A stretch of 64,000 nt of DNA from contig NZ_VCNL01000001.1 in the NCBI RefSeq assembly GCF_007671685.1, positions 558,001 through 622,000 of the forward strand, in the 5' to 3' direction. Positions 4,899 to 30,902 of this stretch are shown here, in pieces. The notes under the pieces are model-generated. The model did no database searches. It saw only the letters and a program-made list of their open reading frames with translations, and had not been told where the DNA came from. The DNA comes from Halorubrum salsamenti (lineage in GTDB: Archaea > Halobacteriota > Halobacteria > Halobacteriales > Haloferacaceae). The stretch's first letter is position 1. Each line of letters begins with the position of its first letter. The position numbers and the translations under genes were made by a program.

Positions 4899-6074
4899 AT
4901 GAGCGACGACCCCGTGACCGCGGTGATCCTCGCTGCGGGCGAGGGACGGCGGTTAGAACCGCTGACGAACCGACGGCCGAAGCCGATGGTCCCCGTGGCG
5001 AACCGACCGCTGTTGGAACACGTCGTCGAGGCCGTCACCGCGGCCGGAATCGACCGGGTCGCACTCGTCGTCGGGTACAGACAGGAGCGCATCCGGAACC
5101 ACTTCGGCGACGGCGACGACTGGGACGTGACGATCGAGTACGTCGAACAGTCGACGCAACTGGGGACCGGCCACGCCGTGTTGCAGGCCGAGCCCGTCGT
5201 CGACGGCCCGTTCGTGGTCCTCAACGGCGATCGGATCGTCGACGCCGCGGTCGTCTCGCGGGTCCGCGACCTCGCGCGCGACGGCGACCACCCGGCGATG
5301 GTGGTCACGACCGCGGAACACCCGCGCGAATATGGCGTGGTGAGTCTCGACGACGATCGCGTGACGGGGATCGACGAGAAGCCCGAAGGGCCGGTCGAGA
5401 CGAATCGGATCAACGCCGGCGTCTACGCCTTCTCGCCGGCCGTGTTCGACGCGATCCGCGAGACGCACGCGACGGGGGAACTGGCGATCACGGCGACGCT
5501 CAACGAGCTCGCGGCGGACGGCGACCTGACCGCGGTCGGGTACGACGGCCGCTGGCTCGACGTGTCGAACCTCTGGGACCTGTTGGAAGTCAACGCCGGG
5601 CTGATCGGCGAGTCCCCGGAGTCGGCATCTGCGCCCCCGACCCTCCGCGAGTCGGTGACCGTCGCCGACGACGTGGCGCTCGCGGGCAACGTCCGAATCG
5701 GACCGAACGTCACGGTCGGGGGGAGCACCGCGATCGGGAGCAACGCGACGGTCGAGGCGGGGGCAGTCGTCGAGAATTCGGTGATCCTCCCCGACGCCGT
5801 GATCGGTGCCGGGGCCGTCGTCCGCGACGCGATCGTCGCCGGCAACGCGCGAATCGGGCCGAACGCCACGATCGCTGGCGGTCCCGCGACCGTCGTCGTG
5901 GGCGACGCGGTCCATCGCGACGTGGAACTCGGCGGCGTCGTGGGCGACAACGCGTCGATCGGCGGCGGCGCGACGCTCGCCGACGGCGCCGTGGTCGGCG
6001 ACGGCGTACGGGCCGACGCGGGAGTCGTGATCGACGGGCGCGTTGAGTCCGGCGCGGTCGTCCGGAGGGGGTAA
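4899..6074 (+). CDS. sugar-1-phosphate nucleotidyltransferase with beta-helix tail
   Basis: A 391-aa paralogue of the upstream GlmU. It has LAAGEGRRLEPLT and RPKPMVPV in the catalytic domain, a YVEQSTQLGTGHAV substrate loop, and hexapeptide repeats from about residue 250 to the end. Unlike GlmU it lacks the C-terminal acetyltransferase motif, so it is more likely a glucose-1-phosphate uridylyl- or thymidylyltransferase-type enzyme feeding NDP-sugar synthesis. It ends two bases before glmS, implying co-transcription. The exact sugar and nucleotide are not evident. Confidence 0.8.
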   Translation: MSDDPVTAVILAAGEGRRLEPLTNRRPKPMVPVANRPLLEHVVEAVTAAGIDRVALVVGYRQERIRNHFGDGDDWDVTIEYVEQSTQLGTGHAVLQAEPVVDGPFVVLNGDRIVDAAVVSRVRDLARDGDHPAMVVTTAEHPREYGVVSLDDDRVTGIDEKPEGPVETNRINAGVYAFSPAVFDAIRETHATGELAITATLNELAADGDLTAVGYDGRWLDVSNLWDLLEVNAGLIGESPESASAPPTLRESVTVADDVALAGNVRIGPNVTVGGSTAIGSNATVEAGAVVENSVILPDAVIGAGAVVRDAIVAGNARIGPNATIAGGPATVVVGDAVHRDVELGGVVGDNASIGGGATLADGAVVGDGVRADAGVVIDGRVESGAVVRRG

Positions 6075-6076
6075 CT

Positions 6077-7951
6077 ATGTGTGGGATCATCGGCTACATC
6101 GGCGAGATACACGCGACTGACGGTGGCGTAACCGGTGAGGCGGCGGACGACGACACGCCCGGAAGCGTCGGCGAGATCGTCCACCGCGGCCTGAAAAACC
6201 TGGAGTACCGCGGGTACGACTCCGCGGGCGTCGCGCTCGTGGGCGCGGCCAGCGGGCTCACCGTCGCGAAGCGGTCGGGCGAGGTCGGCGCGCTGTCGGT
6301 GCCGGACGTGCCCGACGCGACGCTCGGCGTCGGCCACACGCGCTGGAGCACGCACGGGCCGCCGACCGACGCCAACGCGCACCCGCACACGGACTGCGTC
6401 GGGGACGTGGCGGTCGTCCACAACGGGATCGTCGAAAACTACGAGGCGCTCAAACGGGAGCTGTCCGACCACGAGTTCACGAGCGAGACGGACACCGAGG
6501 TCATCCCGCACCTGATCGAAGAGGAGCTGACAGGTGTCGACGGCGACGGGGACGCCGACCTGCTGGCCGCGGTCCGGCGCGTCGAGGACCGGCTGGAGGG
6601 GAGCTACGCGATCTGCGCGGTCCGCGAGGGCGACGACCGGATCGTCGTCGCGCGCCGCGGGAGCCCGCTCGTGTTGGGCCGCGGCGAGGACGCGGCGTTC
6701 GTCGCCAGCGACGTGACCGCCTTCTTGGAGCACACCCGCGACGTGACCTACCTCGAAGACGGTGACGTGGCGGCGCTCTCGCCCGACGGCGTCGAGATTT
6801 TTGCTAGCGGGGAGCCGGTCGAACGCGAGACCGAGACCGTGACGTGGGAGGCCGACGCCGCCGAGAAGGGCGGGTACGAACACTACATGCGCAAGGAGAT
6901 CCACGAACAGCCCGAGTCGCTCCGGCAGACCCTCGCCGGGAGGCTCGACGTGGACGGCGGCGACGTGGATCTGGACGTGTCGTTCCCGCCGGGCTTTCTC
7001 GCGGATCTCGAGGAGATCCGGATCGTCGCCTGCGGGACCTCCTACTACGCGGGTCGGTACGCCGCGCAGCTGTTCGAGGAACTCGCGGGAGTGCGCGCGA
7101 CCGTCGAGATCGCCAGCGAGTACGAGTTCGGCGCGGGCCGCACCCCGGACCGGACGCTGGTCGTCGCCGTGACCCAGAGCGGTGAGACGGCCGACACGCT
7201 CGGGGCGGTCCGACGCGCGAACGCCGCGGGCGCGCGGACGTTCGCGGTGACGAACACCCTCGGAAGCACGGTGACGCGGGAGGTCGACGGCACCGCGTTC
7301 ATCCGGGCCGGCCCGGAGATCGGCGTGGCCGCGACGAAGACGTTCGCCTCGCAGGTTGCGACGCTCGCGATGCTCGCGGTCGCCGTGGGCCGCGACCGGG
7401 GGGCCTTGGCGGCCGCCGACGCGCGCTCCGTGTTGGAGGACCTGCAGGGGCTGCCGGGCGCGGTCCAACAGGTGCTCGACGAGGAGAAACAGGTACGGGA
7501 GGCCGCTCGGGAGTACCGGGACAGCGAGGCGTTCTTCTTCGTCGGGCGCGCGCTGGGGGTGCCCGTGGCGCTGGAAGGCGCGTTGAAGCTCAAGGAAATT
7601 TCGTACGACCACGCCGAGGGGTTCGCCGCGGGGGAGCTGAAGCACGGGCCCCTTGCGCTGGTGACGCCCGACACGCCCGTACTGGCCGTGTTGACAGATG
7701 GTGCTCGGGCCGACGAGACGATGAACAACGTCACCGAGGCTCAGACGCGCGGAGCGCCGGCGCTCGGATGTGTGTCCGCCGGTGAGGAATTCGGGACGCT
7801 GGACGTGTCGTTCGAGGTGCCCGACGTGGGCGTCGTCGAGCCCTTGGTGGCGAACGTCTACCTGCAGCTGTTCGCGTACCACGTCGCTAACGAGAAGGGG
7901 CGGTCGATCGACAAGCCGCGGAATCTGGCGAAGAGCGTGACGGTGGAGTAG
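6077..7951 (+). CDS. glmS: glutamine-fructose-6-phosphate aminotransferase (isomerizing)
   Basis: A 624-aa enzyme that makes glucosamine-6-phosphate from fructose-6-phosphate and glutamine, the first step to UDP-GlcNAc. The N-terminal glutaminase domain starts MCGIIGYIG, so catalytic Cys2 is present. Two SIS domains follow (VACGTSYYAGRYAAQLFEEL; VGRALGVPVALEGALKLKE), and the protein ends with the conserved DKPRNLAKSVTVE. A GGAGG ribosome site stands just before the ATG. Immediate adjacency to two nucleotidyltransferase genes suggests a UDP-aminosugar supply operon for the glycosylation genes in this window. Confidence 0.95.
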   Translation: MCGIIGYIGEIHATDGGVTGEAADDDTPGSVGEIVHRGLKNLEYRGYDSAGVALVGAASGLTVAKRSGEVGALSVPDVPDATLGVGHTRWSTHGPPTDANAHPHTDCVGDVAVVHNGIVENYEALKRELSDHEFTSETDTEVIPHLIEEELTGVDGDGDADLLAAVRRVEDRLEGSYAICAVREGDDRIVVARRGSPLVLGRGEDAAFVASDVTAFLEHTRDVTYLEDGDVAALSPDGVEIFASGEPVERETETVTWEADAAEKGGYEHYMRKEIHEQPESLRQTLAGRLDVDGGDVDLDVSFPPGFLADLEEIRIVACGTSYYAGRYAAQLFEELAGVRATVEIASEYEFGAGRTPDRTLVVAVTQSGETADTLGAVRRANAAGARTFAVTNTLGSTVTREVDGTAFIRAGPEIGVAATKTFASQVATLAMLAVAVGRDRGALAAADARSVLEDLQGLPGAVQQVLDEEKQVREAAREYRDSEAFFFVGRALGVPVALEGALKLKEISYDHAEGFAAGELKHGPLALVTPDTPVLAVLTDGARADETMNNVTEAQTRGAPALGCVSAGEEFGTLDVSFEVPDVGVVEPLVANVYLQLFAYHVANEKGRSIDKPRNLAKSVTVE

Positions 7952-16540: not shown

Positions 16541-18415
16541 TTAGCGCGAGGAGTCAATAGCCTGTTCAACATTGGCGACGAGTGATTCTACTTGCTGCTG
16601 GCTCAATCCGTGGATTCGAGCCGCTTCGAGAATATCCTCGCCAATCGCGTTCGGACAGCCAGAACAGAACAGACCATACTCATCGAGAATGTCCTGAACG
16701 TCCTGGCGTTCGATGAGATCGGCCACCGATTCACCGGATAGGCCGGTCTCGATATCGTATCCTTCGGTAACGTTGTACACGTCGGCGCGGGCTTCCCACG
16801 GAGCATGAAGGAGTCTCCAGAACGCCAGGTTGTATTCGTCAGGTGACCGGCTAAACGTCGCCCAGTAGCCGATGCGGATTTCATCCCACGAGAGATCGTT
16901 TCGGATGACGTATTGGACTAGTCGACCAGGACACTCCATGATGACATGGGTCTGTGAATCGACCTCTGAATGCGATACCAAAGAGTCGGTCGGCTTGTAC
17001 GATATTTGACCGTCGGAAAATGAGATTAATGCTGTGAGCTGCCTTCCGTCGCCACTAAGCCCTATTGACAACGCATGGTTGCCGATCTTTGAAGCGAGTG
17101 TCGAGCCTTGGAGTGACTCAAAATACGCTGCGAGTTCCTCATGTGTTATTACGAATTCCTCGTCGATGAATCGACTACGAGACTCGTAGGCCGCCTCGAC
17201 GATACGCTCAGTCGTCTTGGTGGTGAAGAACGACTCCCGTTCCGGACGTCGAGAGATTTCCTCTGTGCGCCCTGTCCATTTCTCCCCAGGAATCAGGTCC
17301 AGTACGTTGACGGAGTAGTCTCCAAGTCGTGTTATGACATCGCGTGGCCGATTTCGCTGGATTTGTGCTCGATAATCTGCGTGTGACGGCGGCACCAGTT
17401 CGAAGAATTTTGCGAATGGGAGAAAGTAGTTCGGATCGAACATTTCGACGAGTTGTTCGCACTTGTCAAGTTGACCCTCGTTTCGGTTGTGGATCATCTG
17501 TTCTGTCTCTGCCTCGGAGAGGTGATCCCACATGATGGGATAATCAGATGCACCGAACGAAAACCCGGAGGCAATGAGGTCAACCGAGTTGACCTCGTTA
17601 TACACGTTCCAGTTTACGCCTGCGTCGTTGACGTTCAATATGCGGAATCCACCACAGTTGAGCAGTAGGATACTGTCGTTCCATGTGCTCTCGGATTCGA
17701 AACAGACTGCCTCGAGGTTATCGGCGAGTTCGTACGCGGAGCCAGTTGGCAGGCTGTGAACGTTCGTCAATCCAACGTCCTCTAGTCGGGAGGCCAGGCG
17801 TTGATAATTCAATTCAGGTACATAGACGGGTATGTCGGCGTCGAATTTTTCAAGCGTAGGTGGATGGAGGTGGTCAGAGTGTTCATGTGTTATCCAGAGT
17901 GCGTCGATGTCATTCGCCAGCGTCTCAACGTCATGGGTTGGCGGCGGGTACTGCGTCCATCCGCCAAGGAAGGCGTGGCCGTCGATCCAGGGATCCATAA
18001 GCAGCGAGAAGTCGCCGTATTCGACGAGTAGCGCTGCGTGGGAGACAAGTGTGATGTTCGGCAGTTCGTCCGTTATGTCAACCGAAAACCCACCGAATGA
18101 CGGGGTTCTGTCTGGGAGGTCCGCGTAAAGATTGCCATCTGATTCGTAGACGGGATAGGATGTAACAGACTCCCCGGGAATATTCAAGCTATCACCTGTC
18201 TCGGGATCGAATTTCCACCCGTGCTGATGGCAGGTGAGACACTCCTCACTCCCAGGCTCAATCGTTCCGCCCTGATGTGGACACACCGCATCAAGCAGTT
18301 GAGGGTCACCATTGGGAGTTTTGGTGAGAATGTATGGGTCTCCATCGAACTCAACAGGAGAAGGAGTAGATTCGAGCCGAGACGCCGGACCAATGCGAAA
18401 GCGCATAAACTTCAT
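16541..18415 (-). CDS. CMP-N-acetylneuraminate hydroxylase (CMAH)-like protein: Rieske + MBL fold + DUF1858-like domain
   Basis: A 624-aa protein from the ATG at 18415 (other in-frame starts: 18457, 18421, 18406). Residues 40-70 form a Rieske [2Fe-2S] site: C45-P-H47 and C62-x-x-H65. Residues 120-400 are a metallo-beta-lactamase-like fold with LLMDPWIDGHAFLGGW and THEHSDH (H177, H179, D181, H182). Further CMAH-like segments are FSFGASDYPIMWD, NYFLPFAKFFE and SWDEIRIGYWATFSRSPDEY. CMAH converts CMP-Neu5Ac to CMP-Neu5Gc. The last 60 residues add a DUF1858-like redox domain (C584-S-G-C587, then EAARIHGL). With neuA, neuB and neuC in the same island, hydroxylation of a CMP-nonulosonate is the best guess; activity is inferred. 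Confidence 0.82.
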   Translation of the reverse strand: MKFMRFRIGPASRLESTPSPVEFDGDPYILTKTPNGDPQLLDAVCPHQGGTIEPGSEECLTCHQHGWKFDPETGDSLNIPGESVTSYPVYESDGNLYADLPDRTPSFGGFSVDITDELPNITLVSHAALLVEYGDFSLLMDPWIDGHAFLGGWTQYPPPTHDVETLANDIDALWITHEHSDHLHPPTLEKFDADIPVYVPELNYQRLASRLEDVGLTNVHSLPTGSAYELADNLEAVCFESESTWNDSILLLNCGGFRILNVNDAGVNWNVYNEVNSVDLIASGFSFGASDYPIMWDHLSEAETEQMIHNRNEGQLDKCEQLVEMFDPNYFLPFAKFFELVPPSHADYRAQIQRNRPRDVITRLGDYSVNVLDLIPGEKWTGRTEEISRRPERESFFTTKTTERIVEAAYESRSRFIDEEFVITHEELAAYFESLQGSTLASKIGNHALSIGLSGDGRQLTALISFSDGQISYKPTDSLVSHSEVDSQTHVIMECPGRLVQYVIRNDLSWDEIRIGYWATFSRSPDEYNLAFWRLLHAPWEARADVYNVTEGYDIETGLSGESVADLIERQDVQDILDEYGLFCSGCPNAIGEDILEAARIHGLSQQQVESLVANVEQAIDSSR

Positions 18416-18896
18416 GATCATGTATTTACACATATATGTTATGTTTCTCTGTATCATGTCTATTTGATTGATCCTCGCAGATACAGTCGAAAGCTGAATG
18501 AATCTCGATACAAACAGACGCCAACCTGTTCTATATTCAAGAGAATTAGCTTTAATGGTTTCTCAGTGGGCAATAAGAGACGATCAATCACCTGTATCTG
18601 CTCTATCTGAATGGCGGCGTTATTGAGACTGTGAGTGAGTTGACTACTATCTGTGCTGCTCTGTTGAATCCGATGACCGCGCGGGGACCACGATCTCTGA
18701 ATGCGCGTTTATCTCGCTCTTTATTGTCAATGAATTGTAACGAAATACCCAGTGATCTGTATCCTCTCGCTCTCTGCCAAGATTCCATCTCTGAATTCTC
18801 TCGGCAGCGGTCCTGAACCGAGTAGAGAGTAACCCGATTCCGACGCGTTCTGCGGATTCAACAGAACAATTACGTGAATAATAGATGCGGATCAAG
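18416..18896. other. AT-rich intergenic region without a gene
   Basis: About 480 bases between two minus-strand genes, with many stop codons in all frames. Near 18420-18450 it is A/T-rich enough to hold the CMAH-like gene's promoter. No repeat or RNA gene was recognised. Confidence 0.4.
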
Positions 18897-20246
18897 TTAC
18901 GCGTAGCCGAGGTCGCGGAGGTGTTGCTCAACGTTTTTTGAAACGTCTTCGGAGACATCGGTTGACTTCACGTCAACGAGCGACTTTTTAAGTGAAGCGA
19001 GCACCGATTCACCATCTTCATCCGGCGCACCCGCAATCCGGAACCCATCGGAATCTGGCGTCTGAAATTGATATCCGTTTCGGGTGACGACACCAGAAAG
19101 GCATTGGTCAAGCGAATCGATCAGGTTTGTTGGAACTCCCTCACGCTCCATTCGTTCCCTTGACCGAGAGACAAGGCCGTGATATTGCGTTAGCCTTGGA
19201 TCATTAAGAGTGTCGTCAAAGAGGGAAACACCGCGCGTTCCCGATGGCCTATCGACACTCGCAAAATCGAGAACGGTCTGGAACACATCGATGAGCGACA
19301 CTGGGTTCTCGGTCTCTTTTACCCGGGTAGCGGCGTCACCAGACACAACGATCGGAACATGGCAGAGCTCCGTCTGAAGGCCTACAAGGTGCTGGTACAC
19401 GCCCTGTTCGCCGAATGCCTCACCGTGGTCGCTGAGAGTAACTATCATATCCATCGTCTCGGTAAGCTCGTCGAAGATTTGCTCGTAGATGTGAGAGAGA
19501 TAGCGCACCTCGTCTTCGTAGGCTTGCCTGACATCATCGAGTGGTCGATCGTAGCCATCAAGCGCTGTTCTGACGCCATCCGTATCGACTGGGTCGGTCG
19601 TTGCCCACCCCCCGGGCGCTTCGTAAGGGCCATGCGCCTCCATGAGATTGAGAAACACGAACTCTCCTGACGTGTCGAAGGAAGAGGAACGAATCCATTC
19701 TATTGCTTCGCCGCCGCCCATGTCTCCATAACGGCCAATTCCGGCATCCTCCAGCTTGAGATTGAGTCCAGCCTTGAGCGACGGAAGTGTCTTGCAGTCA
19801 CGCGCGAAGCACGCAGAAATCGCCTTCAGGTATCGCAACGGCCCGTCACCGTCGACGGTCTCAATGAATTGCTTCCAGTCAAGGATGTCTGTTTCAAAGC
19901 CCGGGATGTGGGAGGGGCCACTGAGTTCGTCGAACCCCCGGTTCCAATTAAACGCAGGCGTGATGTTCGTGTTGCAAGAAAAACCTCGGACGTGATAGCC
20001 TGATTCCGAGAGTAGCTCCGGGAGCGTCGGCGTGTCACAATCGAACATTCGACTCGCGAACGTCATGTTCACCTCACTGGAGTAGTAGCCAGTAAAAAGT
20101 GAGGCGTGTGCGGGGATAGTACCATGCGATGTCGACCATGCATTTCCGTACCTTTGTCCGTTGAGCCAGTCGAAATTATCGTCGAACGAGTCCTTTCGAA
20201 GCGTGTCGAGAACCACAACTGCAATATTAGGCTTGTCACAACTCAT
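18897..20246 (-). CDS. sulfatase/alkaline-phosphatase superfamily hydrolase
   Basis: A 449-aa member of the alkaline phosphatase-sulfatase superfamily. The metal-binding start is IAVVVLDTLRKDSF, and the nucleophile region reads STSHGTIPAHASLFTGYYSS. A Thr stands where sulfatases carry Cys or Ser, and P-A-H-A-S replaces C-x-P-x-R. The C-terminal metal site is LSDHGEAFGEQGVYQH. Such enzymes hydrolyse or transfer sulfate, phosphate or phosphoglycerol groups on surface glycans. ATG 20246 is chosen because the superfamily start follows at once. It diverges from the flippase gene. Confidence 0.85.
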   Translation of the reverse strand: MSCDKPNIAVVVLDTLRKDSFDDNFDWLNGQRYGNAWSTSHGTIPAHASLFTGYYSSEVNMTFASRMFDCDTPTLPELLSESGYHVRGFSCNTNITPAFNWNRGFDELSGPSHIPGFETDILDWKQFIETVDGDGPLRYLKAISACFARDCKTLPSLKAGLNLKLEDAGIGRYGDMGGGEAIEWIRSSSFDTSGEFVFLNLMEAHGPYEAPGGWATTDPVDTDGVRTALDGYDRPLDDVRQAYEDEVRYLSHIYEQIFDELTETMDMIVTLSDHGEAFGEQGVYQHLVGLQTELCHVPIVVSGDAATRVKETENPVSLIDVFQTVLDFASVDRPSGTRGVSLFDDTLNDPRLTQYHGLVSRSRERMEREGVPTNLIDSLDQCLSGVVTRNGYQFQTPDSDGFRIAGAPDEDGESVLASLKKSLVDVKSTDVSEDVSKNVEQHLRDLGYA

Positions 20247-20402
20247 AGTACCATACACTAGATGGATAAACGACGTGCTTAGTTGTGTAGATTTCGCTCC
20301 TTTCCAGCGGTGCTCCTCCAGGGACACCGATCGTAGTGAGTGGAGTTATATGTCGACAGTTTCCAGCTAATCATGCAACACCTACTACGAGCCATCTCAA
20401 CA

Positions 20403-21833
20403 ATGAGAATCGGACAGACCTCTATCATCGTTTTCGTATCGAAATTGCTGAGTTCAGCACTCGGGTTCATCGCGACATTATATTTCGCCCGTGAGCTTGG
20501 TGCAGAGATTCTCGGATACTTCGCAACTACAATTGCTCTTGTTTCCTGGCTAAAACTCACTGGCGATCTCGGAGTCTCTAACGCGGTCAGAAAGCGGATC
20601 AGCGAGGGCGACGACATCTCGGAATACGCCACCGCGGGAACGATTACAATAATCACATTTGCTGTGGTGATTTCCGTAGCGGTGCTTCTCCTCAATGGAC
20701 TCATAGAGTCGTACGTTGGCCGTCCAGTTGCGGTCTTCGTCGTTCTTCTCTTATGTGCTCAGCTGCTAAAGTCAATGATCGTTTCTCTACTGGAAGGTGA
20801 TCAGATGGTTCATATCTCCGGTATTCTTGAGCCACTTCAAACCGGATCGCGGGCTGCTATTCAGATTGGGCTAGTAATTGTCGGCCTCGGACTATCAGGC
20901 ATGTTTATCGGCCAAGCAGCCGGTTGGATACTGGCCAGTGTCGTAGGGATTTTGTATGTTTCTACATCACCCACTCTGCCAAGCCGCTACCATTTCAAAC
21001 GCCTCTATGACTACGCAAAATACTCTTGGCTTGGGGCACTAGAATCTCGATCCTTCCGTAACATGGATATATTGCTCTTGGGAGTATTCACCTCACCGGC
21101 ACTAGTTGGAGTTTATTCAGTCTCTTGGAGTCTAGCAACATTTCTTACAATCTTCGGTGGTGCTGTTCGATCAGCCCTATTCCCCGAGATTAGCCGATCA
21201 GATGCTAAAGGAGATAGGCAGCAAGTTGCAGCATACCTTACTGACGGGCTCTCGTTTGGTGGACTACTCATCATCCCGGGTTTCGTCGGTGCCATAGTTC
21301 TCGGTGACAGAATCCTACAAATTTACGGGCAAGAATTTACGCAGGGTGTCTCAGTCTTCGGATTCTTAGTTCTTGCCTGTCTCCTCCACGGCTATCAACG
21401 CCAACTGCTTAATGGTCTGAGTGCCATCGATCGCCCCGATCTTTCGTTCCGAGTCAATCTCGTATTTATTGTCGCTAATACAATAGGTAATACCATCCTC
21501 ATCGTCTGGATTGGGTGGGTCGGAGCAGCAATTGCCAGTGTCATATCAACTGCACTCGGGGTGGTATTTGGATATCGAACGCTCCAAAGTCAACTCAGCT
21601 TCATCACTCCCTGGAAAGCAATCGGAGAACAAATTTTCGCAGCTGGAGTTATGGGAATTTGTGTGTATTTGCTCCGACTCCTAATCGAGTCCTCGACTAT
21701 CGGCGTACAAAATATTGCGGTAGTTCTGTTCATTATATCAGTTGGTGCCGGGATCTACTTTCTCACTCTGTTCATAATATCGATGAATTTCCGACGGGTT
21801 ATACAGTCGAATCTCCCGTCTCAGCTATCGTAA
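20403..21833 (+). CDS. Wzx/AglR-type polysaccharide flippase
   Basis: A 476-aa polytopic membrane protein with about 12-14 hydrophobic helices and the start MRIGQTSIIVFVSKLLSSAL. It carries the FARELGAEILGYFATTIALV motif typical of lipid-linked oligosaccharide flippases of the MATE/MVF superfamily. It likely moves dolichyl-linked glycan from the cytosolic to the outer face, where AglB would transfer it. An in-frame ATG at 20373 and GTG at 20340 are alternative starts. Codon use is AT-rich like the rest of the island. Confidence 0.82.
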   Translation: MRIGQTSIIVFVSKLLSSALGFIATLYFARELGAEILGYFATTIALVSWLKLTGDLGVSNAVRKRISEGDDISEYATAGTITIITFAVVISVAVLLLNGLIESYVGRPVAVFVVLLLCAQLLKSMIVSLLEGDQMVHISGILEPLQTGSRAAIQIGLVIVGLGLSGMFIGQAAGWILASVVGILYVSTSPTLPSRYHFKRLYDYAKYSWLGALESRSFRNMDILLLGVFTSPALVGVYSVSWSLATFLTIFGGAVRSALFPEISRSDAKGDRQQVAAYLTDGLSFGGLLIIPGFVGAIVLGDRILQIYGQEFTQGVSVFGFLVLACLLHGYQRQLLNGLSAIDRPDLSFRVNLVFIVANTIGNTILIVWIGWVGAAIASVISTALGVVFGYRTLQSQLSFITPWKAIGEQIFAAGVMGICVYLLRLLIESSTIGVQNIAVVLFIISVGAGIYFLTLFIISMNFRRVIQSNLPSQLS

Positions 21834-22523
21834 ATTTCCCCGTGGTAGACGACTCTTCGTCATTCGTCCCGATATCCCAACACAGCGAGCTTTTCCTTCA
21901 TCTTTTCTGTCGCCTCATGGTACGCTTCAGTACTACCATCGTCTGTGACATCCCGCCGGGAACCATTCTTAATCACTCCCCATGGCATTTTGGTCAGTGA
22001 TTCTGTCCGAAGTCCTCGCGGATGCCCATATAATTTGATAGGAATTGGCCAAATCCGATCTCCAAGCATATTCCCGTGGTCGGATGTAATCACTGTCCAG
22101 CCGGAGAGGTCATTCGCTAGTGCTCTAGCTGCTTCAAATCCCCACTCAAGATTGTTCTGGTAGCCGTTCCACGCCTTGTCTCGGGTCACTTCTCCTGCCT
22201 CAAGAGCTTCCCATACGGTGTCTGGACTAGAGTCGTTGTCATGAATTGTGGTTCCTTCCTTGAGCACGTTTTCAGGGTTCCAATCTTGGAACACAAGTTC
22301 GGGTGTTCGTGGGAACGGAATATGTGGCTGAATGAAATGGATGATCAGACGTTTATCTGGATATTCGTCATGAATCTCCCGCGCTGCGTCTGCGACTTCG
22401 GCTGGTGGGACAGTTTGTTGTTCTTTATCGAAGCGATCGCGCCAAAGTTCTTCGAGGTGGTGGAACTGATTTGGAACAACTTTCGAGGTAACCGGGTTCG
22501 CGGTGATATAAACCGTATCACCG

Positions 22524-22531
22524 AACTCCTC
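22524..22531. repeat. IS target-site duplication, left copy
   Basis: AACTCCTC here is repeated at 23223-23230, just past the other end of the element. An 8-bp duplication is the normal size for IS6-family insertion. Confidence 0.92.
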
Positions 22532-23222
22532 GGTCGCGTTAAGTTTGGCGTGAATTGTGGTAGACTGCGAGGGCTTCGAGCCAATTTTGAGCTGTCTCGA
22601 ACGCGACATTGCTGAAACTATTCGCAAACGATGATGTTCGTCGTTCTATTTCCCAAAAGACACGTTCGATAGCATTCCGATTTCCATGTCGAATGACTTG
22701 AAATCGATAGCCGTCTTCAGCGAGGACTGAGCCGAGATAGTCTGCGTCATCGACGAGAAATTCGACGTTGTTGAGCTGATAGCGCCGGTGTAGCTCGGTG
22801 AGAAACCATCGCGTCGTCTGTTTGTTTGCGGTCGGATAGAGACTTACGTGAAGGATCTCGTTCGTCTGTGGATCAACCGCGCCGTACAGCCAGAACTTCT
22901 GGCCGTGGAGGCGGATCATCTTTTCATCAACCGCGAGTTGATCCTCGGAGACGGTCGAGATCGGCTGTAGATCGGCTTTATGAACCCAGTGATGGATAGC
23001 GACGTGACTGCGATCGATCCCAAACCTTTCGAGATGCTTACTTACCTCGCGTAGTGACATACCGGCCAAATGACAGCGGATCCCTACTTCAATCACCCAG
23101 CGCGGCGTTCGATCTCGCTCCACAAACGACAAGTCGATCCAGGCGATACGTTCGCTGAGGCGGTCGAATTCTGTCATAGACACTCAGAACTCGTCCGCCT
23201 CATCCTCTAACTTAACGCGACC
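22532..23222 (-). mobile_element. IS6-family insertion sequence, 691 bp
   Basis: The element is bounded by perfect 14-bp terminal inverted repeats GGTCGCGTTAAGTT (22532-22545) and AACTTAACGCGACC (23209-23222). It is flanked by the 8-bp direct repeat AACTCCTC, carries one transposase gene and interrupts a sulfatase-like gene. Length, terminal repeats and target duplication fit the small IS6 elements of haloarchaea. It appears intact and may still be mobile. Confidence 0.93.
22539..23183 (-). CDS. IS6-family DDE transposase
   Basis: A 214-aa transposase with an N-terminal helix-turn-helix (LAGMSLREVSKHLERFGIDR) and a DDE catalytic core. The Asp in LAVDEKMIRLHG, the Asp in VEFLVDDADYL and the Glu in RNAIERVFWEIERR are the likely catalytic triad. 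The W-L-Y-G-A-V-D-P motif is usual for haloarchaeal IS6 enzymes. The frame is complete, so the copy may be active. An ATG two codons later is an equally possible start. Confidence 0.93.
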   Translation of the reverse strand: MSMTEFDRLSERIAWIDLSFVERDRTPRWVIEVGIRCHLAGMSLREVSKHLERFGIDRSHVAIHHWVHKADLQPISTVSEDQLAVDEKMIRLHGQKFWLYGAVDPQTNEILHVSLYPTANKQTTRWFLTELHRRYQLNNVEFLVDDADYLGSVLAEDGYRFQVIRHGNRNAIERVFWEIERRTSSFANSFSNVAFETAQNWLEALAVYHNSRQT

Positions 23223-23230
23223 AACTCCTC
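23223..23230. repeat. IS target-site duplication, right copy
   Basis: AACTCCTC, identical to 22524-22531 on the other side of the IS element. Confidence 0.92.
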
Positions 23231-23679
23231 ATCGATGAAATTGTTGTAGGTCCATTCGTCGGTCTTACTGCCTCGGCTCCAAACATGCCGATATTCGTCA
23301 AATTGGCCGGTATCAATTGTCTCTTCGAAGAGATCGAGACGACATGCGTCAAGAATGATGAGATTATCCCACTCCTCATCCATGACACGATTCCGATCAG
23401 AGTCTGAGGTAAGTTTCTGATGTACAGGTGCAATGATCCGCGCGGTAATACGATTTCTCCACCACATACTCCGATGATAATTCTCTGCAATCTCAGAAGC
23501 AGCGTAGGATATTTTATCTAGCATCGTCTACTGAAATGTTCTCTCTACCACTCTTATTAGTTCTGCGGGTTCAAATCACGTGTTTCTGTGTTAATGGTAT
23601 TTGAATAAAGATGTGGGATGAGGAAGAGCAATCATCAACTGGTTTATATCAGAAATCGTCGGACTCAACAGTAGTAGCG

Positions 23680-23980
23680 ACCGCTTTGAGTTAGGTTTGT
23701 AGAGCGAGAGTCGGTACCCGCACAAGCGATAGTGACGAAAACGATGCTGGATGGGACAGATCGTTTTCTGCGTGTCGTGGTGAGTCTGCTGTTACAGAAC
23801 GTCTAGCGTTACCTGTACTACGAATACGTGGTGAGGCCCCGCTGAGGCAGGCGTGGCCTCTGGTGGTGATCTTACAAGGAGTTTATCAATATGATTCGCC
23901 GGGCAGCGTGGACGGTCCTCGCGGTTCGGGTCGTCCCTGTGACCGGCCTCTTCACAACCAGTTCCACCGGTAATTATTAA
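23680..23980 (+). pseudogene. degenerate transposase C-terminal remnant
   Basis: From the GTG at 23732 one frame reads TKTMLDGTDRFLRVVVSLLL, then QNV-stop-RYLYYEYVVRPR, then after more stops SYKEFINMIRRAAWTVLAVR, ending at TAA 23978-23980. Just upstream, ESRYPHKR appears in another frame. The pattern matches the C-terminal end of a haloarchaeal DDE transposase, with several in-frame stops and at least one frameshift. Exact IS family not assigned. The rest of the 23525-24103 gap shows no gene. Confidence 0.6.
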
Positions 23981-24103
23981 CCGAGAAACCGGTATAGAGA
24001 GTGATCGCATCGTCGCGTCAACGACCGATCGCCGCCGACAGCTACTCGCCAGTCCCTCGGTTGAATTATAGCGGTCACCGCGATCAACGAGAGAAGTATG
24101 GCT

Positions 24104-25105
24104 TCAGACCTGCTCAGTGTGGACGTATTGTGAGTCTGTGGATATATTCCGATACCGCACCCAACTGTTCTTGATAACTCTCCCAACATACAGCGCCAAA
24201 TTTTGTACTCTTCGAGGCATATATGTTAGCACGATTAGCAACAGAATCATTACGGTAAATCCTAGTTCAATTGCGTTCTTTCCCTCTGTTTGAGCAGCAT
24301 CGTTATCATCATATCTAATATGTTCTAATAATAGACTCATATGTATCTCACGCTTTTGTTGTTCAGTCAACTGTTGATACAACTGATCCAGATCTCCATC
24401 ACGGAATGCAGATCGTTGTTCCTCAGTAACTTCCCCAGTAGCTCGTAACCGGGCAAATTGGCCGTAAAGTAGCACCTCTCGGAGAGCCGAACCATAGATG
24501 CTAGAATCCCGCATCCTGAGTCTGTAGAGTGGCTCGTTGACATTTCCAATAGAATAATTCTCAGCAATCCGTAGCCAAAGGTCATAGTCCTCAGTATATC
24601 GAAAGTCCTCATCGTAACCACCAACACATTCTACAACACGTTTACGTATCAGTACAGAACCGTGAATGAACCGGTTGCCAGCCAGTAACTGGTCGCGAGT
24701 CACGGACTCCAATACGTGACGTTGAGAACGCCGTCCGTCAGCATACTCTAAGATTGCGCCCGTCCCGAGAAGAGCCAGAGACTCGTTCTCTTGTAAAACT
24801 TCGATTTGTCGTTCAAATCGCTTCGGGTGAGATCGATCGTCTGCGTCTTGGCGGGCGATATACACCCCGTTTGCCTCACGAATCCCACGATTCAACGCAG
24901 ATGGGAGTCCAGATTTGTTTCTTTCAATTAGTGTAATATCGAGTCGATCTTCTGAGGTAATAATATCTACTGTACCATCAGTAGATCCATCATCTACGAC
25001 CACCACTTCGAAATCACGAAACGTTTGTTCCGCAAGTCCATCCAACGCATCCTGTATGGCATTCGCTTCATTATAGGTGGGAAGAACGACACTAATCTCT
25101 GGCAT
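24104..25105 (-). CDS. family 2 glycosyltransferase
   Basis: A 333-aa GT-A enzyme. It starts ISVVLPTYNEANAIQDALDG, with VVVVDDGSTDGT, the metal-binding ARQDADDRSHP, and YTEDYDLWLR as the acceptor/base region. One or two membrane segments (IELGFTVMILLLIVLTYM) near residue 290 suggest membrane association. It probably adds a sugar during assembly of the island's lipid-linked glycan; donor unknown. ATG 25105 is chosen because the GT2 fold starts three residues later. It diverges from the phosphatase-like gene at 25178. Confidence 0.85.
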   Translation of the reverse strand: MPEISVVLPTYNEANAIQDALDGLAEQTFRDFEVVVVDDGSTDGTVDIITSEDRLDITLIERNKSGLPSALNRGIREANGVYIARQDADDRSHPKRFERQIEVLQENESLALLGTGAILEYADGRRSQRHVLESVTRDQLLAGNRFIHGSVLIRKRVVECVGGYDEDFRYTEDYDLWLRIAENYSIGNVNEPLYRLRMRDSSIYGSALREVLLYGQFARLRATGEVTEEQRSAFRDGDLDQLYQQLTEQQKREIHMSLLLEHIRYDDNDAAQTEGKNAIELGFTVMILLLIVLTYMPRRVQNLALYVGRVIKNSWVRYRNISTDSQYVHTEQV

Positions 25106-25177
25106 TTTGCAGGGCGTTATACGTCGTATCAACCATGGGGTTATAACTATGAATGTTCTATGAGAGTTCGGCCAAGA

Positions 25178-26089: not shown

Positions 26090-26113
26090 AGTGCTAAGGT
26101 CAGTACGACGGGT

Positions 26114-27136
26114 CTATTCGAGATCGGTTCGGTCAATAATGCTATCTGCTTCAATCTGTGTTGTTGTTGTTTTACCAAGGATCTCGAAAAATTCGGATGC
26201 GGGGATTCCGGTACCGGGCCGTTTCGTTGTAATATTGGATTCAGTCAATTCAGCACCCTGAGGAATGACTGTTTTTGAAACAATACTGTGCCTCGCCCAC
26301 TCCGCGATTCCAGCTTCCGTTTCAGTCGGTGGTACACGGTTTCCACGTGTCTCAACGACAACATTGGCATACTCAACAAGCTCACCGAGTTCGTCCGGTT
26401 CGATCGATACCTCCTGATCACCGCCGGGCAAGCGGCGATCAATCGTGAAGTGTTTCTCAATGATATCGGCTCCTTGAGCAAGGGCAACAACTGACGCTTC
26501 AATTCCTTGAGTATGGTCTGAAAAGCCAATTGGCGCGTTCAGAGCATCCTTCATTTCCTGTATCGCTCCCAAATTGACGTTCTCAATAGGGGTAGGATAT
26601 TCGGACACACAATAGAAGAACGCAACGCGGTCGGTGTATTGACTGATGAACTCAGCTGCATCCTCAATTGCAGACATAGAGTGCATGCCAGTCGAGACAA
26701 GGAGTGGCTTTCCGGTTTTCGCCGCAATTTTGAGTATATGGTAGTTTGTTACTTCTCCAGATCCAATTTTGTACGCGGGAGTGTCAATCTCATCAAGAAG
26801 TTTCACAGCCTCCGGCGAGAATGGAGTTGATAAGAAATCAATTCCTTTACTTTGGCAATACTGCTGTAGTGTTCGGTGTTCTTCGATACTCAATGCCTGT
26901 TCAGACATCCGCTCATAGAGATCCTCCATATCGAGACTCTCCATTCCTGGAGCAGACATCTCCGCTTCGGGAATATGGGTTTGGAACTTGATCGCATCTG
27001 CACCTGCTGCTGCTGCCTCTTCAATAAATACCTTCGCGAGGTCTATCCGCCCAAGATAGTTCACTCCCGCCTCTGCGATGATGTACGGGCCAGTTGAGTC
27101 AGCAAAGATACCCTCGATTGAGTTGGTGTCGCTCAT
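26114..27136 (-). CDS. neuB: N-acetylneuraminate synthase family protein (NeuB/LegI)
   Basis: A 340-aa enzyme that condenses phosphoenolpyruvate with ManNAc or a related hexosamine to give a nonulosonic acid. The TIM barrel starts YIIAEAGVNYLGRIDLAKVF. Motifs include AIKFQTHIPEAEMSAPG, FLSTPFSPEAVKLLDEIDTP, YKIGSGEVTNYHILK, IGFSDHTQGIEASVVALAQG and IEKHFTIDRRLPGGDQE. The C-terminal SAF (antifreeze-like) domain holds NITTKRPGTGIPASEFFEIL. Its ATG overlaps the neuA stop (ATGA). Sequence alone does not separate sialic from legionaminic acid synthase. Confidence 0.93.
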   Translation of the reverse strand: MSDTNSIEGIFADSTGPYIIAEAGVNYLGRIDLAKVFIEEAAAAGADAIKFQTHIPEAEMSAPGMESLDMEDLYERMSEQALSIEEHRTLQQYCQSKGIDFLSTPFSPEAVKLLDEIDTPAYKIGSGEVTNYHILKIAAKTGKPLLVSTGMHSMSAIEDAAEFISQYTDRVAFFYCVSEYPTPIENVNLGAIQEMKDALNAPIGFSDHTQGIEASVVALAQGADIIEKHFTIDRRLPGGDQEVSIEPDELGELVEYANVVVETRGNRVPPTETEAGIAEWARHSIVSKTVIPQGAELTESNITTKRPGTGIPASEFFEILGKTTTTQIEADSIIDRTDLE

Positions 27137-27828
27137 TTCGTCTTTTCCTGCTCGTTGAGACGAGGAATAAGTTTCCGTACTAGCCAAAGATCGAAATGAG
27201 TGTCAACGTCAACAGACCGCTTCTCCGGCATAGTATAGAGCACTGTTTTTCCCGCTTGAAGACTCTCCGTAGCTAGAAATGCTGGGCTTGCCGTGATATA
27301 GATGGCCCCATTTTCCACATACTCTGGGGATTTATCCTGTCGGCGCTTCCGGTCATCGTTATAATTTTTTCGAACGGCTCCATCTGGGTGCTTCTCCCAG
27401 CGGTAACTATGATCCTCATAAACGGAGACCAACGAAGTCCCGTTAGACTCTTCGAATGTCATAATCGCGTTCTCGATATCATCCGCTGTTCGAAGTGGTG
27501 AGGTTGGCTGAAGAAGAACAACGTGAGTCCACTTATCGGCAGATTCGTGTTCTAAGGCATGTCTAATGACTGGTTCTGTTGGCGCCTCATCAGTCGCGAG
27601 CTCATCTGGGCGGAGATATGGAACCGTAGCCCCACACTCTACTGCTGTATCAGCGATCTCTTGGCTGTCCGTACTGACGACAACATCGTCAATACTTTCT
27701 GATTGCTGCGCAGCCTCGATTGAATGTGCTATGAGTGGTCTTCCAGCAACATCCACGATGTTTTTATTTTCGATACCCTTTGACCCACCTCTCGCAGGGA
27801 TAAGGGCTACATACGATCTGTCGCACAT
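27133..27828 (-). CDS. neuA: acylneuraminate cytidylyltransferase (CMP-nonulosonate synthase)
   Basis: A 231-aa enzyme that activates the sugar with CTP. The N-terminal signature is LIPARGGSKGIENKNIVDVA, followed by VVVSTDSQEIADTA, VVLLQPTSPLRTADDIENAI, YVENGAIYIT and SVDVDTHFDLWL. The length is that of the short NeuA/LegF class without an extra domain. It sits one base after neuC and overlaps neuB by four bases, so the three are one operon. Its product, a CMP-nonulosonate, is the expected substrate of the CMAH-like protein at 16541 and of a transferase. Confidence 0.93.
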   Translation of the reverse strand: MCDRSYVALIPARGGSKGIENKNIVDVAGRPLIAHSIEAAQQSESIDDVVVSTDSQEIADTAVECGATVPYLRPDELATDEAPTEPVIRHALEHESADKWTHVVLLQPTSPLRTADDIENAIMTFEESNGTSLVSVYEDHSYRWEKHPDGAVRKNYNDDRKRRQDKSPEYVENGAIYITASPAFLATESLQAGKTVLYTMPEKRSVDVDTHFDLWLVRKLIPRLNEQEKTK

Positions 27829-27829
27829 A

Positions 27830-28999
27830 CTATAGATTTAACTGCTCTGGCTTCATTGGCTGTTTCATTGTCAGGTCGGTCTGGCTGATAATTTCCTTCA
27901 TTTTTTCACCTGTATTTCCATTTCCATAGAGGGTTGACCTCTCATATGGACCAACAGAGAGTTGCTGCTCAATACCTTTTTTAATATCCTCTGTATTACA
28001 GTCCACATCGAGGACGTTTGGCCCCCGCTCACGCATCTGTTGGCGGCCGCCAATATTCACTGTCGGCTTCCCTAGATACGAACATTCTCTGATCCCAACA
28101 CTTGAGTTCCCAACCATACATGCTGAATTGCTCACAAGCGTCAGATAATCATCAGGATGCATATTAATGTAGAACCGGACATCGTCTGGAGATCGCTGAT
28201 CTCGGTATTCACGGATCGCCTTCGAAACCTGATTCGTGCCAGCGTCCATGTTTGGCCAAAACCAGAACGCTTGTACATCAAGATCATCCACTGCGTTGAT
28301 TAGCTCCCATGTCCGGTCATATTCGCTCATATACTCTGTTGCGACTGGATGATACTGAACGACGAGATAATCCTCATCTATATCAATCTGGGCTCCGACA
28401 CCTGCGTAGTCTTCCTGTGGATCGTATCGATTGTCATCATTTTGTTCAATATCCTCAACAAGATCGATCGAGGGACAGCCAGTAAGAAACACCCGATCAG
28501 TTTCCTCACCTAACCCCTCAACAACATCTACACTTTTTTCTGTGGATACAAAGTGGTAATCCGCCATCTTCGTCGTCGCGTGGCGCACCTTTTCATCAAT
28601 GGATCCAGTAATTTCTCCACCTTGTGTGTGAATGACCGGGATATTCAGATACGACGCAGCCAGAGTAACAGACATCGTTTCGTACCTATCTGCGATAGTG
28701 ATCACTCCGTCTGGATCAAGTTCATCAAGTACGGAGGTAAATTCGATCATTCCAAGACCAGTTGTTTTCGCAGAGGCGACAGGTGTTCCCCCCTCCAATA
28801 CGTTGTATAGCTCGCGCTCTATCTCGAGCCCGTCTTCACGCAACAACTCAGACAAAGTACCATATTTTCGGATCATAGATGCACCGGCAACGATGATGTC
28901 TAACTGAGTATCTGGGTCACTATCTAGCGCATGGAGAAGCGTGCCTGTGCGGGCGTAATTTCCTCTGCTAGTCAAGCAGATCGCAACGTGTGTCGACAT
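27830..28999 (-). CDS. neuC: UDP-GlcNAc 2-epimerase, hydrolysing (NeuC/LegG family)
   Basis: A 389-aa GT-B-like epimerase. It starts VAICLTSRGNYARTGTLLHA, with the catalytic-site TIADRYETMSVTLAASYLNI, HTQGGEITGSIDEKVRHATT, VFLTGCPSIDLVED and a C-terminal CMVGNSSVGIRECSYLGKPT. The hydrolysing class converts UDP-GlcNAc to ManNAc and UDP, the first committed step of sialic acid synthesis. It is the first gene of the neuC-neuA-neuB operon. UDP-GlcNAc would come from glmS and glmU. A legionaminate-type substrate is possible, but none of the genes needed to make one is in the window. Confidence 0.9.
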   Translation of the reverse strand: MSTHVAICLTSRGNYARTGTLLHALDSDPDTQLDIIVAGASMIRKYGTLSELLREDGLEIERELYNVLEGGTPVASAKTTGLGMIEFTSVLDELDPDGVITIADRYETMSVTLAASYLNIPVIHTQGGEITGSIDEKVRHATTKMADYHFVSTEKSVDVVEGLGEETDRVFLTGCPSIDLVEDIEQNDDNRYDPQEDYAGVGAQIDIDEDYLVVQYHPVATEYMSEYDRTWELINAVDDLDVQAFWFWPNMDAGTNQVSKAIREYRDQRSPDDVRFYINMHPDDYLTLVSNSACMVGNSSVGIRECSYLGKPTVNIGGRQQMRERGPNVLDVDCNTEDIKKGIEQQLSVGPYERSTLYGNGNTGEKMKEIISQTDLTMKQPMKPEQLNL

Positions 29000-29084
29000 A
29001 CCGCTGGACAGCACCGTCATACCTAAATACGCTTCGAACCGTCTAAGCCAACAACACCATTACAATAGACACATTCTTTTTAAA

Positions 29085-30902
29085 ATGAAAATAATTCTAA
29101 CAGATCATTCTGATATTCCATCCAGACAGTTGGTAGGTGCGTCCCGTATTGTCACGTTCAACAATGAAGCGTACAACCAGATCGATACGGGAACAGTGGT
29201 GATGGGCTCGGACTATCAGCCTAATAATATCGCGACAGACGAAGAGTTTGATAAGCTCCGTGAATGGCTTGCCGATCAATTCATTTATGATGGAATTGAC
29301 ATTGGGCCGCTTATCCAAAATACGTTTATTGATCTGTTTGGGTACGAGCTTATCAGGCAAACTAAAACAATTAAAAATATTCTCCAAACGGAGCAACCAA
29401 CAGAGGTAGTAGTTTACTCTAACCCGGTTCCTGTTTATGAATGGATCCCCCTCGGATCCGGGGAAATAATACCCGGTGTCCCTGAAGCCGTAGCTACTGC
29501 TGAAAATATTGAGGTTCAGGAGTACACGAAATCAATAACAGCAAGTCGTATTAAAGATCGAACTTTTAGATCAATTGGTCCGAGTGTTCTTCGACCACTT
29601 GATTGGGGGTCTGAGTTCATCTCACGAATGCGGGGTAACAGGCCATCACACGATTCGGATCTTGTTTTATTCGTGTTTACAAAAAACAATATCAATGTCG
29701 TTGAACCAGTCGTCGACGCGCTTGATGACCGTGTGAACACCACGGTAGTTACACATGCACATGGTTTTACGAATACTGGACAAGATATCTCAACCTCTTT
29801 GTCCAACTTGAATGTGCCAGTTGTCCCGTTAGCGAAGTATAGTTCACTCACATCGTACAAGGAGGAAATTAAAATAGTGAGACAATTGGCGAGGAACCCA
29901 GACTCTGCTCAACCATTTTCTGACCAGAAGCCACACAGTATCAGCGGAGTCAACCTCACACCCGCACTACAATCCCGCGGATGGCTGTATGCTGCCCTTC
30001 AATATCCCAGAGTCGCCCGGTATGTTCATATGATGCAGAATATGCTCAGAGCTGAACAACCACAGTCAGTTCTTCTGAAAAATGACGGACCCCTCCCGAC
30101 ACGAACAGTGGCAACGGCTGCAGAAAATAAAGGCGTTCCGACACTATTGGTCCAACACGGTGTAGATCTCCCGTCTCGGAGATATGTCCCTGTTTCAGAT
30201 CAGATCGCTGTCTGGGGTGAACGGTGGCAAGAAGTGATGGAGAGGAAGGGCGTTGAGCGTGAGCGAATCAAGATTACTGGTGCACCACAATTTGACCATT
30301 TAGCTCGCTATTCTGCGAAAGATCAATCTCAAATCCGTGAGCAACTCTCTGTCTCTATTGACTGTGGAACATTTACTGTGCTTCTCGCTTCCCAACCCTT
30401 TGATGATACGATACGTTCCAATTTAGTCCAAACGGCTATCGGGGCAGTTCGTGACCTACCGAACGTGGAATTACTTCTTCGTCCGCACCCGAGAGAGGAT
30501 ACAGAACTTCACAAAAAAGCAGCTTCGGATATTCCAAATGTCCAAGTCGTTGAGAGTGATGATATTCATGATTTATTGTTTGCATCCGATGTTGTTTTAG
30601 CGCTCCGGTCGACAGTAGTGCTTGAAGCAAGCTTATTGAATCGACCAGTTGTGATTCTTGATGTTTCAGCTGAAAAGCCACCAATCGAAGAGTTTTCGGA
30701 GCAAAATGGATTTACCGAGGTTACGAATCGAGCCGAAGCGCGAGAATGTATTGAAGAAATGAAAGATAGCCCCAAAAGTGTAGCACGTTATACTAACCAA
30801 CAGCCTAGATTTGGGAGAGAATACGCTCTCAACGAAGATGGAGGTGCAGCCGGTCGAGTTGCTAGAATCATACAAAATCTGATTGTATCCAAATCAAACT
30901 AG
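29085..30902 (+). CDS. GT-B glycosyltransferase with HP and ST motifs, candidate sialyl/nonulosonate transferase
   Basis: A 605-aa protein. The C-terminal half carries VPTLLVQHGVDLPSR, IKITGAPQFDHL, LLLRPHPRED (about residues 463-472, the HP motif) and VVLALRSTVVLEASLLNRPV (an ST motif near 507). HP plus SS/ST motifs mark bacterial sialyltransferases (GT38/GT52/GT80/GT97), but CDP-glycerol phosphotransferases and capsule KpsS-like enzymes share similar elements. It diverges from neuC across an 85-base gap, and that placement favours a role in transferring the CMP-activated sugar. The N-terminal half is unrecognised. Confidence 0.65.
   Translation: MKIILTDHSDIPSRQLVGASRIVTFNNEAYNQIDTGTVVMGSDYQPNNIATDEEFDKLREWLADQFIYDGIDIGPLIQNTFIDLFGYELIRQTKTIKNILQTEQPTEVVVYSNPVPVYEWIPLGSGEIIPGVPEAVATAENIEVQEYTKSITASRIKDRTFRSIGPSVLRPLDWGSEFISRMRGNRPSHDSDLVLFVFTKNNINVVEPVVDALDDRVNTTVVTHAHGFTNTGQDISTSLSNLNVPVVPLAKYSSLTSYKEEIKIVRQLARNPDSAQPFSDQKPHSISGVNLTPALQSRGWLYAALQYPRVARYVHMMQNMLRAEQPQSVLLKNDGPLPTRTVATAAENKGVPTLLVQHGVDLPSRRYVPVSDQIAVWGERWQEVMERKGVERERIKITGAPQFDHLARYSAKDQSQIREQLSVSIDCGTFTVLLASQPFDDTIRSNLVQTAIGAVRDLPNVELLLRPHPREDTELHKKAASDIPNVQVVESDDIHDLLFASDVVLALRSTVVLEASLLNRPVVILDVSAEKPPIEEFSEQNGFTEVTNRAEARECIEEMKDSPKSVARYTNQQPRFGREYALNEDGGAAGRVARIIQNLIVSKSN

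Follow-up and report, generated by a model that had tools for sequence, protein, structure and literature searches.

Gene content of the island

The stretch analyzed here (the window) comprises 64,000 nucleotides of a contig of Halorubrum salsamenti and carries a gene for a protein resembling CMP-sialic acid hydroxylase (CMAH), termed P0001, within a group of genes predicted to serve surface glycan biosynthesis. The relevant genes and domains are as follows.

4899..6074, plus strand: GlmU-like nucleotidyltransferase (predicted UDP-GlcNAc supply, function assigned from sequence), 47% identical to its Halobellus neighbor and linked to CMAH there too
6077..7951, plus strand: GlmS-like glutamine-fructose-6-phosphate aminotransferase (predicted function, likewise assigned), 61% identical to its Halobellus neighbor
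16541..18415, minus strand: CMAH-like protein P0001, 624 aa, intact ORF; an alternative start at 18457 would give 638 aa
16574..16726, minus strand: DUF1858/TIGR03980-like redox-disulfide domain (CSGC), P0001 residues 564-614, from TIGR03980 and alignment
16808..18055, minus strand: metallo-β-lactamase (MBL)-fold catalytic region, residues 121-536, from PF12706/PF13483 and CMAH-family invariant columns
17870-17887, minus strand: HxHxDH at residues 177-182, within the MBL region, whose other marks are D141, D264 and FxxGAS (285-290)
18152..18385, minus strand: Rieske [2Fe-2S] domain, residues 11-88 (PF00355, E=2.8e-10), with ligands C45, H47, C62 and H65
20340..21833, plus strand: Wzx/MurJ-type flippase (PF13440, E=2e-18), conserved in the Halobellus island (38%)
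26114..27187, minus strand: neuB, nonulosonate (N-acetylneuraminate-type) synthase (PF03102, E=3e-76; TIGR03569, E=1e-99, below the equivalog cut-off)
27133..27828, minus strand: neuA-type CMP-nonulosonate cytidylyltransferase (PF02348, E=5e-26; PseF/NeuA-type, below the equivalog cut-off)
27830..29020, minus strand: neuC, hydrolyzing UDP-GlcNAc 2-epimerase (TIGR03568, 338 bits, cut-off 235.9)
29085..30902, plus strand: candidate CMP-nonulosonate or surface-glycan transferase, from weak matches to TIGR04396 and NF046086 (both below curated cut-offs) and PF04464
31922..35194, plus strand: AglB-like oligosaccharyltransferase of host GC content flanking the island, assigned by reading the translation

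A first-pass annotation of this DNA had placed neuC, neuA, neuB and a candidate transferase in one low-GC island as a sialic acid route. All four genes were located in the island (16541-30902, ~14 kb), which has a GC content of 48.8% compared to 67% for aglB and 70.5% for glmS. The genomic context of the route was borne out, also by a second haloarchaeal island, by gene runs in bacteria and by the lack of a LegC/PseC-type aminotransferase in this genome. NeuC scored above its cut-off. The flippase at 20340-21833 had been overlooked. The three neu genes run in one direction at 8-11 kb from the CMAH gene. NeuB scored 333.8 bits against TIGR03569 (cut-off 399.65), and NeuA scored 158 bits against TIGR03584, the PseF model (cut-off 205.7). 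Contamination is an unlikely source of the island because the contig is 949 kb long and the genome is rated 99.96% complete.

Also within the island, a ~690-bp insertion element interrupts a sulfatase/alkaline-phosphatase-like gene (21860-23524). The element carries a transposase-like ORF (22539-23183) and ends in perfect 14-nt terminal inverted repeats at 22532-22545 and 23209-23222.

Domain architecture of P0001

The Rieske ligand pairs C45/H47 and C62/H65 and the THEHSDH motif (residues 176-182) were found as previously described, and both the Rieske ligands and the HxHxDH set are invariant across all 21 aligned rows of the CMAH family. In a profile search, the Rieske (PF00355) and Lactamase_B_2 matches both exceeded the Pfam cut-offs, the latter with E=1.9e-9 and with the MBL match at residues 121-246. 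The four segments quoted earlier as collinear with animal CMAH, including NYFLPFAKFFE, do occur in that order, and all four coincide in part with columns that are invariant or conserved in the family. The earlier description of a Rieske domain joined to an MBL fold was therefore correct as far as it went, having missed a third domain at the C terminus.

This third domain matches TIGR03980, described by NCBIfam as the hybrid-cluster-protein-associated redox-disulfide domain, with E=5e-8, which is below the curated NCBIfam cut-off; its CSGC motif occupies residues 584-587. Across the proteins of the window, genome G127, Halobellus and Halovenus, the matches ranged from E=5.2e-8 to 1.7e-10, all below the curated cut-off; two bacterial CMAH-like proteins were scanned as well, and neither matched the profile. 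The domain is common to all four haloarchaeal CMAH copies and confined to haloarchaeal CMAHs.

Placement of P0001 in the CMAH family

The 21-row alignment of the CMAH family contains 36 invariant columns, which P0001 shares with 18 bacterial CMAH-like proteins. Among them are C45, H47, C62 and H65 of the Rieske domain and D141, H177, H179, D181, H182, D264 and FxxGAS of the MBL region. The MBL metal ligands and FxxGAS are also present in a provisional mouse CMAH sequence, which is not a database entry and serves as a lead only. This provisional sequence aligned to two bacterial proteins from the scan with 40% identity over 547 and 568 columns, supporting that it represents a real CMAH. With P0001 as query, BLAST aligned bacterial CMAH-like proteins in one collinear stretch that ended near residue 533, with E-values down to 1e-42 (for a database of 1e8 residues). 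The alignment to the provisional mouse sequence was also collinear, with 26% identity over 537 columns (about 510 residues). As in CMAH, the Rieske domain of P0001 precedes the MBL domain. The order is opposite in NamH-like proteins, where the Rieske domain is C-terminal (residues 470-481, compared to residue 45 in P0001).

In a tree built with the ungapped P0001 sequence, which has long branches and is to be read with caution, the haloarchaeal and bacterial proteins and the provisional mouse CMAH fell on one side with support of 100/98. A quick tree without NamH recovered the same grouping (support 84). Forcing the haloarchaeal rows to group with the MBL-only proteins or with NamH was rejected by the AU test (p=0.013 each). 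Placement of the haloarchaeal group as sister to the other CMAHs or nested among bacteria was rejected in neither case (p=0.16 and 0.35). The haloarchaeal branch has a length of 1.98 changes per column, and its members are 20-26% identical to the bacterial ones. Within the same tree, the provisional mouse CMAH nests with proteins from Myxococcota and Nitrospira (100/99); as the sequence is not a database entry, this is no more than a hint that the animal gene came from bacteria.

Identity with NamH is ruled out by domain order, motif and tree, and the haloarchaeal MBL-only proteins are ruled out as the true family of P0001 by the AU test (p=0.013). The order of its domains, its invariant residues, its position in the tree and its collinear alignments over the full length all place P0001 in the CMAH family as a haloarchaeal representative, as had been proposed.

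Structural model

The AlphaFold model of P0001 (pLDDT 84.4, pTM 0.78) is poor in region 547-604. In a fold search with the model, NAPE-PLD was the top match; the diiron hydroxylase CmlA, which has an MBL fold, ranked fourth. Sequence search of the PDB with P0001 returned Rieske ferredoxins and MBL hydrolases and no CMAH structure; none had been reported as of a 2016 review (PMC4819959).

Since the MBL part is closest in fold to NAPE-PLD, and since related MBL-only proteins lacking a Rieske domain are common in haloarchaea, P0001 might be regarded as an ordinary MBL-fold hydrolase, such as a NAPE-PLD or UlaG-like phosphodiesterase, carrying an attached Rieske domain and devoid of oxygenase activity. 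However, the Rieske ligands are invariant throughout the family, the MBL-only proteins differ at H126 and the FxxGAS residues, the AU test rejects grouping with them, and CmlA provides a precedent for hydroxylation by an MBL-fold diiron enzyme. We consider a hydrolase very improbable. The match to CmlA fits oxygenase chemistry, in which the MBL domain would activate O2 at an iron site and the Rieske cluster would supply the electrons.

Relatives in other genomes

Among 391 genomes from the class, the only true relatives were an intact protein in genome G127 (54-55% identity) and a decayed copy in Halovenus rubra (G180) that retains the C-terminal part; distant MBL-only proteins were found in many of these genomes. 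One further relative, from Halobellus rufus, was identified in 170 genomes of the family. The scan with an alignment that included the provisional mouse CMAH recovered Halobellus rufus, Halovenus rubra and 18 bacterial loci. Scanning genome and viral contigs with one sequence alone returned no relatives. Two phage matches were dismissed as short, partial and limited to the MBL region. The archaeal CMAH group spans four genomes, with one copy decayed, and forms a deep, rare branch. In Halovenus rubra, the gene (L034, 13122-14165) is close to the end of a contig, lacks the N-terminal 240-280 residues and has a GNAT-like acetyltransferase ORF as its neighbor.

The decayed Halovenus copy, the low GC content of the island and the insertion element inside a nearby gene could indicate that the P0001 gene is a recent acquisition that this strain does not express or that has no function in it. 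Against this, the 624-aa frame is intact with every invariant residue kept, and intact, full-length orthologs of 54% identity occur in two further genera (G127 and Halobellus rufus). Loss of function is accordingly given little credence here.

In Helicobacter cynogastricus (G406), NeuB genes are present in two copies, as are CMAH-like genes (E=2e-195 and 6e-124). A genome survey, as cited in PMC6288428, lists CMAH-like genes with predicted function in several microbes including Helicobacter, so on that account the presence of the family in prokaryotes is not new. The first-pass annotation had described the modification as best known from deuterostome animals; given the microbial genes cited there, the family extends beyond deuterostomes and this archaeon. 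As far as our tools show, the new elements are the archaeal members, the C-terminal domain that they carry in addition, and their pairing with neuC, neuA and neuB in two genera.

Linkage of CMAH-like and neu genes

A second island in Halobellus rufus contains the same seven genes as the window within about 20 kb, with identities of 38% for the flippase, 58% for neuC, 53% for neuA, 51% for neuB, 54% for CMAH, 47% for glmU and 61% for glmS. In bacteria, a Myxococcota locus (L058, 6456-11674) showed a neuB-neuC-neuA-CMAH gene run in which the neuA and CMAH ORFs overlap. Its CMAH-like protein is 35% identical to the provisional mouse CMAH, and the run predicts bacterial synthesis of N-glycolylneuraminic acid (Neu5Gc). 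At L070, neuB, neuC, neuA and CMAH share one direction; all three neu genes lie near CMAH at L062 and L063, and neuA with part of neuC at L067. NeuB was encoded within 15 kb of CMAH in 6/19 genomes compared to 0.30 expected by random placing (P=1.8e-7), an expectation that is too low given the general clustering of glycan genes, although adjacent neu-CMAH runs are still hard to explain otherwise. NeuB was present in 17/19 CMAH genomes and in 76/391 haloarchaea. The association is weak within haloarchaea alone (3/3 genomes, P=0.007; 2/2 without the window, P=0.04).

The intact CMAH ortholog of G127 is located 1.2 Mb from the NeuB cluster of that genome, which looks legionaminic-like. The NeuB clusters of G127 and Halovenus rubra, being legionaminic- or pseudaminic-like and far from the CMAH gene, indicate that the CMAH substrate may differ between lineages. 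Separately, a haloarchaeal MBL-only relative without a Rieske domain (L037, 4589-10213, genome G161) lies ~3 kb from NeuB in a pseudaminic-acid-type cluster with PseC, PseG and a cytidylyltransferase.

Predicted nonulosonate and proposed mechanism

The routes to legionaminic and pseudaminic acid require a DegT-family aminotransferase (LegC or PseC). No full-length PF01041 (DegT) protein was found in the window genome, where the best partial match had E=1e-14, compared to matches of 1e-90 to 1e-124 in G127, Halovenus rubra and Halobellus. Both routes are judged unlikely for the window genome on this basis. The missing DegT aminotransferase, the single NeuB of this genome and a NeuC above its cut-off together favor a Neu5Ac-type product, with NeuB and NeuA scoring below their equivalog cut-offs.

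P0001 might alternatively perform the same N-acetyl hydroxylation on a different main substrate, either another CMP-nonulosonate or, as for NamH, a UDP-N-acetyl sugar. The haloarchaeal branch, deep, long and separate from the CMAH rows of bacteria and animals, leaves room for a shift in specificity, G127 has a CMAH gene and only a distant legionaminic-like NeuB cluster, and, as NamH illustrates, action on muramic acid precursors occurs in the wider family (PMC10050696). This is countered by the two haloarchaeal islands that pair CMAH with neuC-neuA-neuB and by a window genome with a single NeuB and no aminotransferase of the legionaminic or pseudaminic type. UDP-MurNAc is not known from archaea, which also counts against a NamH-like substrate. 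A different main substrate appears unlikely, while deserving serious consideration.

We regard it as probable that P0001 hydroxylates CMP-Neu5Ac in this archaeon and so provides CMP-Neu5Gc for a surface glycan, with substrate, product, metal and electron donor all predicted from sequence and family resemblance. In the proposed pathway, NeuC would convert UDP-GlcNAc to ManNAc, NeuB would condense ManNAc with PEP to Neu5Ac, and NeuA would activate Neu5Ac to CMP-Neu5Ac. The CMAH-like enzyme would then hydroxylate the N-acetyl methyl group to give CMP-Neu5Gc, from which the island transferase may transfer the sugar to a surface glycan. Electrons would enter through the Rieske cluster, with O2 activated at the MBL-domain iron site. 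For the disulfide domain at the C terminus, a role as an extra module for electron delivery or redox control is probable, though offered as conjecture.

Implications

Neu5Gc is considered characteristic of deuterostome cells, in which animal CMAH converts Neu5Ac to Neu5Gc. The sugar is treated as absent from microbes and has been unreported from any of them (PMC6288428, PMC6524697). This assumed absence shapes ideas on self-recognition and on the source of human anti-Neu5Gc antibodies, and the archaeal gene set and bacterial neu-CMAH runs make it directly testable. If our reading is true, Neu5Gc may come not only from animals but also from an archaeon and several bacteria. We lean, by a modest degree, toward the full proposal that this archaeon makes Neu5Gc through a CMAH with its own redox-disulfide domain and displays it on surface glycans, and that the family has a longer history and a broader distribution among prokaryotes than among animals. 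Because no CMAH structure turned up in the PDB search, archaeal or bacterial members could also be useful models for studying structure and mechanism in this family.

Comparison with known systems

The legionaminic acid route of Halorubrum sp. PV6 also employs NeuC, NeuB and NeuA homologs in a haloarchaeal N-glycosylation setting (PMC6137143). In this respect it resembles the window, but it uses LegB, LegC and LegH, and a LegC-type aminotransferase is absent from the window genome.

Haloarchaeal MBL-only proteins (450-480 aa) have an MBL core and a C-terminal block alignable to P0001. They differ in lacking the Rieske domain, in having Ser at H126 and AAQ, AAN or FAG for GAS, and in forming a separate clade. 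NamH, the muramic acid N-acetyl hydroxylase of mycobacteria and relatives, combines MBL and Rieske domains for the same conversion of N-acetyl to N-glycolyl, but with the Rieske domain placed last (PMC10050696), GAI for GAS and a separate clade.

Animal CMAH, as judged from the provisional mouse sequence, shares with P0001 the Rieske-then-MBL order, the Rieske ligands, HxHxDH, FxxGAS and a conserved C-terminal block. Unlike P0001, whose activity is predicted and which forms a deep, separate archaeal branch, it has no DUF1858-like C-terminal domain. The animal enzyme takes electrons from cytochrome b5 and b5 reductase (PMC4819959); no gene for either was noticed among those of the island.

The bacterial CMAH-like proteins, from Myxococcota, Nitrospira, Bacteroidota, Pelagibacter, Prochlorococcus, Helicobacter and others, are only 20-26% identical to P0001, are without the C-terminal disulfide domain and have a likewise predicted function. 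They nevertheless have its architecture and the 36 invariant residues, and several of their genes adjoin neuA, neuB or neuC.
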